From: Chthoniobacteraceae bacterium
Lineage (GTDB): Bacteria; Verrucomicrobiota; Verrucomicrobiia; Chthoniobacterales; Chthoniobacteraceae
Direction of reading: 5' to 3'
Assembly: GCA_947476045.1 (NCBI GenBank)
Contig: CANJNZ010000044.1
Coordinates: 1 to 37,589 of the forward strand
Length of the DNA stretch: 37,589 nucleotides
Under the pieces are notes generated by a model. That model ran no database searches. It had not been told where the DNA came from and worked only from the letters and a program-made list of their open reading frames with translations. Of this stretch, positions 12,871-17,943 are shown piece by piece. Position numbers and translations under genes: made by a program. Within the stretch, counting starts at the first letter, position 1; each line of letters starts with the position of its first letter.

Positions 12871-13323
12871 ATGTTCAATATCGTCCTCGTCGAACCGGAA
12901 ATCCCGCCGAACACCGGCAGCGTCGGGCGACTCTGCCTCGCGACCGGAGCGCACCTGCATCTCGTGGGGAAGCTCGGCTTTTCGCTCGATGACAGTCAGC
13001 TCAAACGCGCGGGGCTCGACTACTGGCACAAGGTGAACGTGACGCGCTGGGAGTCGCTCGACGAATTACGGGCCGCGCACGCGGAGGGGCGGTTTTTCTT
13101 TCTCACCACGAAAGCGACACGCGCCCATTGGTCGGAGAGTTTTCGCGATGGCGATTTCTTTGTCTTCGGTCGCGAGACGAAAGGGCTGCCGGAGCCGCTC
13201 CTCGCCGCGAATCGCGAGCACTGCCTCACCATCCCGATGGAGGCCGACTCCACGCGCTCGCTAAATCTTTCCACCTCCGTCGCCATCGTGCTCTACGAAG
13301 CGCTGCGGCAGACGGCGAAGTGA
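12871..13323 (+). CDS. trmL: tRNA (cytidine/uridine-2'-O-)-methyltransferase TrmL
   Basis: 150 aa, matching the compact TrmL length (~155). It is a SPOUT-class, knotted methyltransferase. Visible motifs are NIVLVEPEIPPNTGSVGRLC at the N-terminus, FFVFGRETKGLPEPLL (motif 2, SAM-binding knot) and IPMEADSTRSLNLSTSVAIV (motif 3, SAM-binding loop and dimer interface). TrmL methylates the ribose at the wobble position (34) of certain tRNA-Leu isoacceptors, using S-adenosylmethionine. It begins 12 nt after the kinase stop and is probably on the same transcript, though it has no link to sugar uptake. Confidence 0.93.
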   Translation: MFNIVLVEPEIPPNTGSVGRLCLATGAHLHLVGKLGFSLDDSQLKRAGLDYWHKVNVTRWESLDELRAAHAEGRFFFLTTKATRAHWSESFRDGDFFVFGRETKGLPEPLLAANREHCLTIPMEADSTRSLNLSTSVAIVLYEALRQTAK

Positions 13324-13369
13324 GCGGCTGCTGGAGTCGTTTTTTACAGTCTCATTGCTCGAAAGGTTT

Positions 13370-13584
13370 GGCGCGTAGCGCCTGCGACTACGGTAGCCGT
13401 GTGCTAGGAGCGTAGCGACGCAGCCCACGGATTACGCGAAGCATCCATGCACCGCGTATGCGGTGCGACAAACGGTGCCACGTGAATGGTCGCGCCGACT
13501 ACGCGGCGCTTGCCGTTTCTCATCCTTTCCGTGGGTTTCGCTGTGCTTCACCCACGGCTACCGTAGTTCCTGGCGCTACGCGCC
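13370..13584. repeat. Imperfect inverted-repeat element, 32-bp arms, with internal hairpins
   Basis: The arms 13370-13401 and 13553-13584 are reverse complements at 29 of 32 positions; the three mismatches fall within one 4-base block. Two perfect internal hairpins lie between them: GCACCGC/GCGGTGC (13449-13466, 4-nt loop) and CCGTGGGT/ACCCACGG (13529-13557). The overall form resembles a short non-autonomous palindromic repeat of the REP/MITE kind. No transposase or target-site duplication was identified. Confidence 0.7.
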
Positions 13585-13882
13585 ATAGGGCTGCCCAACA
13601 GGAGAAGTCGTATGATTTGTCAGCGAAAGGCGCGAAAGTGCGCAAAAAACCAGACCGGCACCATGGAGCGAGCGTGTGGCGAAAGCACCGGCGCGTCTTT
13701 GGCGGGGGAATGCGCCATGGGAAATCCCCATGAGCGGGAAAAGAAAGCCATCCCGCCGGATGGGAGTTCCACCCATCCCACCGTCTGCACCGCCGACGTT
13801 CCTGAGCCTTGCGGGAGCCAGGCCGCCGCTTCCGGCAGCAAACTCATTTCCCGCAGCAGCGTGATTCCGGCTTCGGGTATCC

Positions 13883-14470
13883 ATCCCGCCTGTTTCGGGA
13901 TGAATACCGCGCGCATCGGGAGCCATCCCTTTTGAAAAGGTAGCCCTACCTTTTCCCCGGCTGGCCCTACCTTTTCAAAAGGTAACGATACCTTTTCCGC
14001 GGCTGGCCCTACCTTTCCGAAAGGTAGCGATACCTTTTCCACGGCTAGCCCTACCTTTCCGAAAGGTAACGATACCTTTTCCGCGACTAGCCCTACCTTT
14101 TCAAAAGGTAGCGATACCTTTTCCGCCGCTGGCCCTACCTTTTCGAAAGGTAACAATACCTTTGCCCGGGGTAGCCCTACCTTTTCTGCGGCTGGCCATA
14201 CCTTTTCAAAAGGTAACGATACCTTTCCCCAGAGTAGCGATACCTTTTGCTGGAAGGACGATACCTTTTCCCAGAGTGACGATACCTTTTCCCGGAGTGA
14301 CGATACCTTTTCCCGGAGTGACGATACCTTTTCCCGGAGTGACGATACCTTTCCTCGGAGTGACGATACCTTTTCCCAGAGTGACGATACCATTTCCCGG
14401 AAGGACGATACCTTTTCGCGCGGGATTGCCACCTTTCCTCAGAGAAGGCCCTGTTCCTACAGAGAGCCGC
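13883..14470. repeat. 21-bp tandem repeat array, about 28 units, fixed phase
   Basis: Consecutive 21-nt units begin ATACCTTTT or CTACCTTTT. About 25 are clear (13925-14449), and degenerate units at 13883, 13904 and 14450 stay in the same register; no unit is longer or shorter than 21. In the left half, two unit types mostly alternate, giving a 42-nt super-unit: one contains an inverted repeat (CTACCTTTT/AAAAGGTAG or a variant) and the other ends in GGCTGGCC or GGCTAGCC. The right half is simpler, with units ending CCCGGAGTGACG. Because 21 = 7 codons, several frames stay open. The minus-strand frame (14432 down to 13620, GTG start) encodes heptads such as EKVSSLR and EKVSLPF; coding status is doubtful. 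Confidence 0.9.
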
Positions 14471-14498
14471 TGATGAAATCAGGAGACGTTGTTTTCTG

Positions 14499-14576
14499 TC
14501 CGCAGATGGCGCAGATTTTCGCAGAGAATGCAGGCAGGTGACTTCAAAATCTGCGCGAATCTGCGCAATCTGCGGA
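14499..14576. repeat. 27-bp imperfect inverted repeat (CCGCAGAT type)
   Basis: The arms 14499-14525 and 14550-14576 match as reverse complements at 24 of 27 positions. They are built from short words such as CGCAGATT and CTGCGCAATCTGCGG. The 24-nt spacer has no feature. Similar palindromic words recur in intergenic DNA of several environmental phyla; that statement is from memory, not from a search. Confidence 0.75.
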
Positions 14577-14619
14577 TACATCAATGTTTTTACAGAGAAT
14601 ACCGCCCATCGAACCCGGG

Positions 14620-14708
14620 CTCAATCCGCAATCCGCAATCCCAAATCCGCAATCAGTCGCCCCAATCCGCAATCCGAAATCTGCGATTGATTGACATCCC
14701 AAATCCCC
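14620..14708. repeat. Cluster of short direct repeats AATCCGCAATC/AAATCC
   Basis: At least four near-copies of AATCCGCAATC occur between 14620 and 14680, followed by AAATCTGCGATT and AAATCC words. It may be slippage-derived. It sits 40-130 nt upstream of the Roco start and no promoter could be distinguished within it. Confidence 0.6.
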
Positions 14709-14748: not shown

Positions 14749-17448
14749 ATGCCCAACACACCACCATTCAGGGATAGGGAATCGGATGATGAAGTAGAGA
14801 ATGAACCCACACCGATGCGTTTAGCGCGAGCAAGGATCGAGAAGGCGCGGCGCGAAGGTGAGCGGGAAGTCTTTTTGGCCAGCTTTGGGCTCACGACACT
14901 TCCGGAGGAACTTTGGGAAATACCAGACCTACATACGCTTGATCTAGGAAACAACCTACTCACGAGCGTGCCGGAGGCGCTGGGTCAACTTACCGGACTA
15001 AAAACGCTTTACCTTCAGGACAACAAGATCAGGAACGTGCCAGAAGCACTAGGCAAGCTCACCGCGCTGCAACTGCTTGATCTTTCTATGAACCAACTTA
15101 CGAGCCTGCCAGAGGCACTGGGAAAATTGAAGGAATTGCGAATGCTTTACCTCCACGACAACCAACTCACGAAAGTGCCGGAGGCGCTGGGGCAATTAAA
15201 TGCGCTGCGAGAGCTTCATATTCAAGCCAACCAACTCACAAGCGTGCCGGACGCACTGGGACAGTTAATGGCGCTGCAAGAGCTTTATCTCTTCAATAAT
15301 CAGATCACTAGCGTGCCGGAGACGCTGGGCAAACTGACCAATCTGCGAGAGCTTTGGCTTCAAGATAACCAGCTTGCGATGCTGCCGGAGGCGCTGACCA
15401 AGCTTTGCAAAGAGGGTAGGCTCGAACGCCTTTTCCTCAACGGCAATCCGGCACTAAACCTGCCTGTGGTGCTGCTGGGGCCGACGTGGCTTGAGGCTAA
15501 CGAGAAAAATCCCCCGGCGAAACCCGCAGATATCCTCGACTACTACTTTTCGATCTGCGGCTCAGCGGGACAGGCACTGCGGGAGGTGAAGCTGATCCTC
15601 TTCGGGCGCGGGGAGGTGGGTAAGAGCTCGATGGTGGATGTGTTGCGTGGGAGGGAGTTCGTGGAGAAGCGGGCACGGACGGACGGGGTGGCAATCACAC
15701 CATGGGACGTGGAGTTGGCGGACGGGAAGGCGAAGGTCCTGCTGTGGGATTTCGGCGGACAGGAGATCATGCACGGCACACACCAGTTCTTCCTCACGCA
15801 CCGGAGCCTCTACGTGGTGATAGTGGACGGACGGCACGACCGCGCGAAGCAGGATGCGGAATACTGGCTGAAGCTGGTGCGGGCCTTTGGCGGGGAGTCG
15901 CCGGTGATGGTGGTGATGAACCGGCAGAAGGAATATCCCTTTGCAATAGATATCCAGTATTTGGCGGACAAATATGGAGTGAAGCTGGATCATTTCTTCC
16001 GCACGGACTGTGAGCGTCCGAATGATATCGCACCGCTACGCGAGGCGATTTTGGAGGAAGTGGCGCGGATGCTCGCGACGGAAGAGCGGTTTCCCAAGAA
16101 CCGATGGGAAGTGAAGACGCGGCTCGAAAAGATGAAGGAGGAAAAAGAGGACTATCTTTCCGAGGAACGCTACGCGCAGATTTGCGATGAATATGGTGTG
16201 AAGGGCGAGGAGGAGCAGGGCAAGTTGCTGCGTCGGCTCGCGGATCTCGGCACGGTGGTAAGCTTCCCGGATGACGGGAAGCTGGCGGAGTTCTCCGTGC
16301 TAAACCCGGAGTGGGCGACAGACGGCATCTACCGCGTGGTGACGAATGAGTCGCTGCGCGAGGAGAAGCATGGCCAGCTCCGCTGCGCCTCACTCCGCGA
16401 CCTGCTACCGAAGGATCGATGGCCGAAGCCGAAGCATCTCCAATACATCGTGGAACTGATGAAGAAGTTCGAGCTGTGCTTCCCCGTGGATGACTGCGAA
16501 GTCGCCGTGCTCGTGCCGGAACTACTGCCGGATAAGACGCCGCCGCTGGCAGACTGGGACGCGGCGCAATGCGTGGTCTTTCACTACAAATATACGGTGC
16601 TGCCGCACGGCGTGCTGCCACGATTCATCACGCGCACCCACGAGTTGAGCCAAGGCCGCGAACGCTGGCGCACAGGCGTTGTGCTGGCCGATGACGGCGC
16701 GGAGGCGCTGGTGAAGGCGGACTACGATGCAAACTTCGTGAGCGTGTGGGTGCGCGGGCCGCACGCGGATGGAAGGCGTGCTTTGCTGAAGGTGGTGCGG
16801 CATCACTTTGAACACATCCATGCGCGCATCAAGGAACTGAAGCCGGAAGAATTGGTAGCAGTGCCAAACTATCCAGAAGTTTTGGTTTCCTACTTGGATC
16901 TAGTGCTGGATGAAAGAGCCGGGGAGGTGAGAACACGAGTCACTATTGCCGGCGAACGTGTTGAACGTCAGATCACCGAGCTTCTCAATGGGGTTGAGAC
17001 CCGAGCCGAACGGGAAAAGAGGATGCTTGAAAGGGAGGAACCCCTCTGGAAGAAGGATATCATGAGTCTGCACATAGACAAAAGCATCCACATACATGGT
17101 GACGTGACTAACTCGCAGATCGGCCAGACGCTGACGAACTGCACGAACATGATCCAGCAGCAGGCACCGGGGGAGAAGAAGGACTTGCTCGAACAACTGC
17201 AAAGCGAAGTGAAGGCGCTCATCGAGGTGCTACCGGGTGAAAAGAAGGAGGAAGCGGCGGGCGACCTTGAGCAGTTGGTGAAAGGCGCGACGGCCACAAC
17301 CCCGAACCGGCGCTGGTATTCGGTTTCAGCCGAAGGACTGATGGAGGCGTCGAAGTTTGTGAAGGACTTCACCGGGAACATCGTGGGGACAGTGGGCACA
17401 CTCGGAAAGCTGCTGTGGCCGGATTTCAGCCTGCCCGACGAGAAATAG
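14749..17448 (+). CDS. Roco protein: leucine-rich repeats, Roc GTPase, COR, unassigned C-terminal module
   Basis: 899 aa. After a charged N-terminus, 23-residue leucine-rich repeats run from ~46 to ~240 (LxxLDLxxNxLTSVPEALGxL). The Roc GTPase follows at ~278-440: Walker A GRGEVGKSS (286-294), switch II DFGGQE (334-339), and NRQK (391-394) where NKxD is usual, so the guanine-specificity motif is altered. COR spans ~460-690, with a winged-helix-like segment and a dimerisation part. Residues ~690-760 hold a helical linker; then SIHIHGDVTNSQIGQTLTN (a short beta-turn repeat) and a helical tail (~800-899). Roco GTPases cycle as dimers and signal through attached domains, but the partner here is unknown. 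It stands alone, flanked by repeats and a convergent DUF151 gene 36 nt away. It probably acts in the cytoplasm, as it lacks any signal or TM segment. Confidence 0.93.
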   Translation: MPNTPPFRDRESDDEVENEPTPMRLARARIEKARREGEREVFLASFGLTTLPEELWEIPDLHTLDLGNNLLTSVPEALGQLTGLKTLYLQDNKIRNVPEALGKLTALQLLDLSMNQLTSLPEALGKLKELRMLYLHDNQLTKVPEALGQLNALRELHIQANQLTSVPDALGQLMALQELYLFNNQITSVPETLGKLTNLRELWLQDNQLAMLPEALTKLCKEGRLERLFLNGNPALNLPVVLLGPTWLEANEKNPPAKPADILDYYFSICGSAGQALREVKLILFGRGEVGKSSMVDVLRGREFVEKRARTDGVAITPWDVELADGKAKVLLWDFGGQEIMHGTHQFFLTHRSLYVVIVDGRHDRAKQDAEYWLKLVRAFGGESPVMVVMNRQKEYPFAIDIQYLADKYGVKLDHFFRTDCERPNDIAPLREAILEEVARMLATEERFPKNRWEVKTRLEKMKEEKEDYLSEERYAQICDEYGVKGEEEQGKLLRRLADLGTVVSFPDDGKLAEFSVLNPEWATDGIYRVVTNESLREEKHGQLRCASLRDLLPKDRWPKPKHLQYIVELMKKFELCFPVDDCEVAVLVPELLPDKTPPLADWDAAQCVVFHYKYTVLPHGVLPRFITRTHELSQGRERWRTGVVLADDGAEALVKADYDANFVSVWVRGPHADGRRALLKVVRHHFEHIHARIKELKPEELVAVPNYPEVLVSYLDLVLDERAGEVRTRVTIAGERVERQITELLNGVETRAEREKRMLEREEPLWKKDIMSLHIDKSIHIHGDVTNSQIGQTLTNCTNMIQQQAPGEKKDLLEQLQSEVKALIEVLPGEKKEEAAGDLEQLVKGATATTPNRRWYSVSAEGLMEASKFVKDFTGNIVGTVGTLGKLLWPDFSLPDEK

Positions 17449-17484: not shown

Positions 17485-17943
17485 TTACTGCTGCCCTTCG
17501 CCCTGCTGCTCTTCCATTTTTTTCAAAATGTCGGAGCGGTCTTCGACTTCCTCCCACACTTCGCTGGCGACATAGACGGGTGCGCCTTGCTGGATGGCGA
17601 GGGCGATGCAGTCGCTGGGGCGTCCATCGAGTTCGATGATCTTTTTGGCGTGCAGTTCGTTTTCGGCGCTGATGATGAGGCGGGCGAAATAGGTCTCGGT
17701 TTTGAGGTCGTTGATGATGACGCGCTCCACTTTCGCGCCGAGCGCGGTGAGCAGGTGGCCGAGGAGGTCGTGCGTGAGCGGGCGTTCCTTGGGCGTGTTG
17801 TTGATGAACATGGCGATGGCTGCGCCGACGCTTTCATCCACATAGATGACGAAGACCTTGTGCTCGTTGCCGACAAAGACGGCGCGGCCGTTGTTATACG
17901 GAAGGATGGCGCGCACGTTGACGGGAACGACCTGTTTGCTCAT
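17485..17943 (-). CDS. Bifunctional nuclease / DUF151 family protein
   Basis: 152 aa on the minus strand, convergent with the Roco gene. It matches the DUF151 bifunctional-nuclease family: conserved ESVGAAIAMFINN near residues 37-49, TxDLLGxLLxxLGAKVERVIINDLK, TYFARLII, and the hallmark LDGRPSDCIALAIQQGAPVYVA. Plant and Thermotoga relatives have been described with RNase/DNase or structural roles; bacterial function is mostly unknown. The C-terminus adds a Glu/Gln-rich tail (EEQQGEGQQ). Predicted cytosolic. The upstream neighbour at 18051 is divergent, so 17944-18050 should hold both promoters. Confidence 0.9.
   Translation of the reverse strand: MSKQVVPVNVRAILPYNNGRAVFVGNEHKVFVIYVDESVGAAIAMFINNTPKERPLTHDLLGHLLTALGAKVERVIINDLKTETYFARLIISAENELHAKKIIELDGRPSDCIALAIQQGAPVYVASEVWEEVEDRSDILKKMEEQQGEGQQ

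Follow-up and report, generated by a model that had tools for sequence, protein, structure and literature searches.

A family of non-coding 21-bp arrays with a shared terminal module and phased dyads in Chthoniobacteraceae

The 21-bp tandem array studied here does not encode a coiled-coil protein; it is a single member of a family of non-coding arrays that share a terminal module, one 21-bp register, and a 12-bp dyad but have mostly unrelated unit sequences. The array lies in the window, the whole 37,589-nucleotide stretch of DNA that we analyzed, which is contig C44 of a 4.37-Mb MAG (genome G000). We favor, at a probability of roughly 0.6, the reading that the family is a dispersed, fast-turning-over non-coding DNA element in which the geometry of the palindromes is conserved and their sequence is not.

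Results

Layout of the array

We located the units by TRF and direct reading and observed 25 contiguous 21-bp units with zero indels at 13926-14450. Degenerate in-phase units, followed by TRF and a register listing, extend leftward to about 13750. The gap-free phase that a sequence-only reading of this DNA had described, degenerate ends included, was thus borne out. Its further claim that no indel occurs holds for the clear units, but an alignment with the closest informative relative (G001, the uncultured Spartobacteria MAG Umea_bin-08385 of the same genus) revealed one base lost from the window near 14449, in the terminal module and at the extreme edge of those units. TRF resolved the left half (13921-14186) into 6.3 copies of a 42-bp super-unit with 86% matches, and the inverted repeat CTACCTTTT/AAAAGGTAG was found in these super-units. 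The right half (14216-14417) consists of 9.6 copies of a 21-bp unit, again with 86% matches. Both halves had been read correctly from the letters, as 42-nt super-units with an inverted repeat and as near-identical single units, respectively. With TRF scores of 208-393, and with period 21 or a multiple the commonest among sampled arrays of at least 80 bp (see below), the array is far beyond chance.

The features of the element and its surroundings are as follows.

12871-13323, plus strand: trmL, left neighbor of the variable segment
13317-17485: segment of ∼4.2 kb absent from three congeners, comprising the array element and the LRR-Roc-COR gene
13620-14432, minus strand: heptad ORF, judged non-coding (neutral substitution pattern)
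13750-13938: distal (degenerate) end of the element, with the 21-bp register kept, e.g., GGGAGCCATCCC at 13918
13939-14219: 42-bp super-unit block, with a perfect dyad GGTA-N4-TACC in one unit per pair
14220-14429: block of near-identical 21-bp units, adjoining the terminal module and common to the window and G001
14406-14470, plus strand: conserved terminal module (..GCCACCTTTCCTCAGAGAAGGCCCTGTTCCTACAGAGAGCC..), the family signature (R1 match, E 6.7e-12)
14749-17448, plus strand: LRR-Roc-COR protein gene (Pfam COR-A, COR-B, Roc, LRR_4, LRR_8)
17485-17943, minus strand: bifunctional-nuclease gene, right neighbor of the variable segment

In the window register, a unit reads GGTA-N4-TACC followed by 9 bp. 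The super-unit dyad is lengthened in places to AAAAGGTAG/CTACCTTTT; in the right-hand block, the units are mostly AGTG-ACGA-TACC plus 9 bp, a dyad that is imperfect and half paired. Homologues of the window's distal end, identified by a profile search, are themselves the distal ends of other elements (G001:C258, G001:C145, G000:C2, and G000:C12).

We also observed other repeats around the array. Positions 14469-14590 hold a dispersed ∼122-bp repeat that comes close to a perfect long hairpin, its 38-nt arms being 79% complementary. Copies at 91-94% identity lie at G000:C17 (L057 6556-6677 and 10584-10704), with another in the congener G006 (L189). The 7-bp tandem repeats at 14622-14681 (CAATCCG / GATTGCG) recur beside many arrays, and few short tandem periods are as common as 7 in the sampled genome (19 clusters). 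On the left, a dispersed repeat at 13343-13615 (GCGTAGCGCC.., with inverted parts) has copies at L050, L073, and L083; unrelated sequence stands in its place in G001.

The heptad reading frame

The GTG-started minus-strand frame of 270 amino acids (14432-13620), from which a coiled-coil or fiber protein had been proposed, exists exactly as claimed. An exact seven-codon period is natural for coiled coils, the frame stays open over 270 codons, and the V and L of EKVSSLR stand at a/d spacing. Nevertheless, the substitutions were neutral, both against the orthologue and between units. In the non-repeat flank (13655-13914), 17 differences from the G001 orthologue were distributed 5, 5, and 7 over the codon positions; in the ORF frame, 5 were synonymous and 12 non-synonymous, when neutrality predicts 4.6 synonymous. 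Under the same comparison, the control gene trmL showed 13 synonymous and 6 non-synonymous differences, with 5.1 synonymous expected if neutral. Unit-to-unit differences inside the array gave synonymous counts of 11 versus 11.6 expected and 7 versus 6.8 in the ORF frame. Coding in any of the six frames was rejected on the ground of these neutral substitutions.

Furthermore, the ORF starts within the array and runs on at its C-terminal end past 13655, where homology with G001 ends. The left-half heptads contain prolines, codons do not explain the covariation of the dyad arms described below, and the sister arrays encode unrelated peptides, with no common product on read-through and, in several arrays, stops in the corresponding frame. 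A reading that stays open (..LLREM.LLPEAAA.LP.GSG..) is, on the other hand, common to five paralogous distal ends, where synonymous changes are in mild excess in the ORF frame (118 versus 92.8 expected), a count taken over pairs that are not independent. We therefore regard a real heptad gene belonging to a repeat-protein family as very improbable. The other suggestion made from the letters, that the DNA itself is the functional unit, is supported and extended by the dyads, which are phased and covary, by the conserved end module, and by the many sister arrays.

Many arrays, one period

In 1.24 Mb of sampled sequence from the window genome, we found about a dozen arrays of at least 80 bp with a fundamental period of 21 bp or its multiples, the commonest period among arrays of that length. 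The same 1.24 Mb held no array of at least 80 bp with period 19, 20, 22, or 23. The period-21 arrays have no or few indels, and their units are mostly unrelated between arrays. Unit consensuses showed a slight excess of kinship (10.22 versus 9.95 ± 0.08 matches) that came from a few related arrays, and sequence kinship was accordingly rejected as the basis of the family. G001 likewise carries many arrays of exactly 21-bp period; we saw none in 200 kb sampled from the congener G008. Some arrays stand at contig ends, which suggests that short-read assembly collapsed them. Period-21 arrays also occur in other genera of the same family and order, some of them picked up through their similarity to the window, the others being candidate relatives.

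A module at the array end

At one end of the arrays stands a module of ∼60-80 bp. A profile built from 6 seed arrays already matched the ends of further arrays. R1, a sequence-only module model made from nine sequences, detected 8 copies in the window genome and 16 in G001, and none in 38 other genomes of the family. It led us to 8 previously unseen loci, 7 of which (G001 C275, C233, C236, C138, C216, C195, and C146) have a lag-21 array directly beside the module. Beside the module at the weakest new locus, G000 C93, there was no lag-21 array. The pairing is not due to chance, because 1.43 Mb of sampled sequence contained only about 15 such arrays. Units at the new loci are as unlike as CCGTGCAAAGACTTCTTTCCG, AGTTTTAGACGGAGCATTTAA, and AGTCAGTCCGACGGCCAACGG. 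The homogeneous units adjoin the module and similarity decays distally; at C19, modules apparently stand on both sides (read by eye).

Dyad geometry and covariation

The units share one layout, a 12-bp dyad (4-bp arm, 4-bp center, 4-bp arm) and a 9-bp spacer, and their 21 bp correspond to two helical turns. Arm pairs across arrays include GGTA/TACC, GGGA/TCCC, GGGG/CCCC, AAAG/CTTT, and AGTC/GACT, with GGTG/CACC in genera farther off. At the fixed phase, the arms AAAG, AAGC, ATGG, CTAA, GGGA, GGGG, and GGTA pair fully; AGTC is a further paired type, in C70b. In the degenerate tail of C19, the phase is perfect and GGTA/TACC, GGGA/TCCC, and other pairs alternate, while centers and spacers vary.

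Most arrays have the dyad in a constant phase relative to the module. Measured from the module motif, the commonest dyad phase was 17 (mod 21), at ten loci with 2 to 11 dyads each. The window has phase 19, not 17, and C12, C3, C25, C145, and C2 also deviate, perhaps owing to indels near the motif or to a different motif having been picked. We scored a module-anchored grid of center lengths 0-13 and all 21 phases on ten arrays outside the model's seeds, and the eight best cells all fell on two sets of concentric symmetry axes 10.5 bp (one helical turn) apart.

The two arms also covary. In A3, a set of 35 non-redundant units picked regardless of pairing, the 4-4-4 dyad had 30 cells changed on both sides versus 10.9 ± 2.6 in shuffled sets, and its covariation score was 0.553 versus 0.217 ± 0.040 shuffled (0 of 500) and at most 0.278 in slid controls. 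The rows are related, and units within one array are not independent. The score in A1 (39 units including the window) was 0.312 versus 0.205 ± 0.025. Both phase 17 and the 4-4-4 layout came from inspection of these same data; the grid, the slid controls, and the loci found by the module guard against this in part. Without phase anchoring, palindrome enrichment in units was weak.

Dyads are imperfect in the window's most homogeneous block (14220-14408) and in the amplified units of C33, G1C5, and G1C146; amplification therefore does not need the dyad. A mismatch strand test counted 48 G-T versus 30 A-C cells (p = 0.05), and homologous arrays contributed many of the former. Isolated GGNA-N4-TNCC sites numbered 157 with a 4-bp center, versus 88 with 3 bp and 67 with 5 bp. 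This excess about equals what the arrays hold, and we therefore saw no dispersed regulon and rejected one built of isolated dyad sites.

Turnover and genomic position

G006 has trmL directly beside the bifunctional-nuclease gene, and the sequence on either side is 93-97% identical; the two genes are likewise adjacent in G004 and G008. Extra DNA between them is common to the window and G001 only; the 4.2-kb segment may reflect either insertion or loss. The leucine-rich part of the LRR-Roc-COR protein is only ∼53% identical in G001, with neighboring genes at 92-95% (DNA).

The G001 orthologue of the window array keeps the same register but has about 9 units versus 25, a difference in whole-unit steps, and most of the super-units (block 13939-14219) are missing from it. 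The C12 element and its G001 orthologue both lie upstream of the same gene; the gene side is 90% identical over 989 bp and the module side 82%, and the arrays measure about 444 versus about 65 bp and are made of different units. Array C23 is missing at the orthologous sites in both G001 and G006, as seen in a flank search whose query was joined by hand from several flanks and interpreted for the C23 and C3 parts only. Copy number and unit sequence thus change quickly at orthologous sites, in whole 21-bp steps. The idea that absence from relatives would mark a local slippage accident proved too simple: single arrays do come and go, but the family persists at many loci.

Many copies precede genes. 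At 6 of 6 loci found for a paralogous 233-aa family (MKRQ.YYPSRI..), the order was module, array, start codon (L080 5320-6018, L093 1397-2098, L100 16938-17636, L132 5415-6113, L207, and L211), and at some of these loci a small XRE-type gene stands farther upstream. A gene also reads away from the array at C12/G001:C145, C2 (20-40 kb), C59, and C19. In the window, the corresponding array side faces the trmL end, and it is the module side that has the LRR-Roc-COR gene; this copy thus has no gene in that position.

The upstream XRE-type helix-turn-helix genes, recognized by eye, include L080 4225-4482 and L093 330-587, ahead of module-array-gene units, and nearly identical XRE-type proteins stand beside arrays of unlike sequence. 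A second gene family (MTKDYIPNKDDDFD.., L062 6713-7378) likewise follows an array.

Discussion

We propose that units would multiply next to the module, by slippage, unequal exchange, or hairpin-assisted template switching. With their axes ∼10.5 bp apart, the dyads would maintain a strand-symmetric arrangement along one helical face, and they may extrude small hairpins or bind a dimeric protein that responds to shape more than to sequence. Because the array lies just upstream of a gene in many copies, it is probably a fast-evolving cis-acting spacer or landing strip for nearby genes, a role for the cell that we infer. Among the points against this reading, the palindromy could be a mutational by-product and not a function, and the window itself has no gene on the expected side. 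A more ambitious version is less likely than not. It would make the arrays a new bacterial repeat system of an end module and phase-locked palindromic 21-bp units, in which selection acts on geometry and leaves sequence free. A dedicated or hairpin-assisted process would add units at the module end, and the arrays would serve as fast-evolving cis elements upstream of particular gene families.

The by-product argument leads to a selfish or neutral minisatellite, in which slippage makes the units and hairpin-templated correction or strand switching makes them palindromic, with no benefit to the cell. Arrays are gained, lost, and turned over quickly, near relatives have the empty arrangement, amplified units may carry broken dyads, and the arrays are strand symmetric, with G-T not clearly preferred over A-C. 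However, some constraint must be at work if otherwise unrelated arrays are to have the same module and a fixed phase, 4-bp arms offer little length for hairpin-templated correction, and the arrays recur directly upstream of one gene family. We judge this account unlikely, though a serious contender, and give roughly one chance in four to the symmetry having arisen by mutation alone. Covariation of arms around free loops also resembles RNA, and many arrays sit just upstream of an ATG, as would suit a transcript that folds into a row of small hairpins, within either a leader or a non-coding RNA. Against such an RNA, an Rfam search gave no match, a simple scan of the window stretch showed no promoter-like site, stems of 4 bp are weak and some are A/T-only, and G-T cells are not clearly favored on one strand; we hold it to be improbable.

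Comparison with known repeats places the non-coding element family near several systems. Bacterial minisatellites (VNTRs) are likewise tandem and intergenic and shift copy number in whole units between relatives, as the window array does (25 versus about 9 units in the same register). VNTR loci of one genome, however, differ in period and share no end sequence, whereas the present arrays, with unrelated units, agree exactly in period and have a terminal module and a phase-locked dyad in common. REP/BIME elements, associated with RAYT (Y1) transposases, are also short dispersed intergenic palindromes, sometimes clustered, but their sequence is conserved and has a GTAG head. In the present family, symmetry and spacing alone persist, with arms as different as GGTA, GGGA, GGGG, ATGG, AAAG, AAGC, CTAA, and AGTC and no conserved palindrome or GTAG-type head. 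Y1_Tnp (PF01797) is present in 10 of 10 genomes of the genus and modules in two of them; a Y1 transposase, found with or without modules, was set aside as a probable driver. CRISPR arrays resemble the family in having a conserved end sequence, with units that are homogeneous close to it and degenerate at a distance, but the present units are contiguous, with no unique spacers between identical repeats, and their sequence changes by locus. No Cas gene was noticed in the window ORF list. The family therefore lacks the defining REP/BIME and CRISPR features examined and exceeds an ordinary minisatellite.

Iterons of plasmid origins are also direct repeats of about 21-22 bp on one helical face; the present arrays differ in lying on a chromosome-like contig, in having up to about 25 units, and in a sequence that differs per locus. 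No Rep gene was recognized in the window (ORF list by eye, Pfam on six ORFs). The 22-bp iterons of an Acinetobacter baumannii RepM plasmid (NZ_CP087338.1, L188 3001-3106) contain the window-unit 14-mer CGATACCTTTTCCC, probably by chance. The plasmid match was set aside, as it amounts to iterons sharing the 14-mer and is inflated by periodicity. A literature search for 21-bp arrays in Spartobacteria and Verrucomicrobia, with most subscription journals outside its scope, found no description.

Bacterial repeat families are usually recognized by conserved sequence. In this one, period, phase, and symmetry alone persist, and sequence-based finders would therefore list the arrays as unrelated minisatellites or repeat proteins; the terminal module offers a handle for finding all copies. 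Should the geometry be kept by selection, something in these cells would recognize the shape of the DNA, or hairpins extruded from it, across hundreds of base pairs. Should it be kept by mutation, the arrays would document, in nature, strand switching templated by hairpins. In both cases, an explanation is at hand for heptad proteins misannotated in these MAGs.
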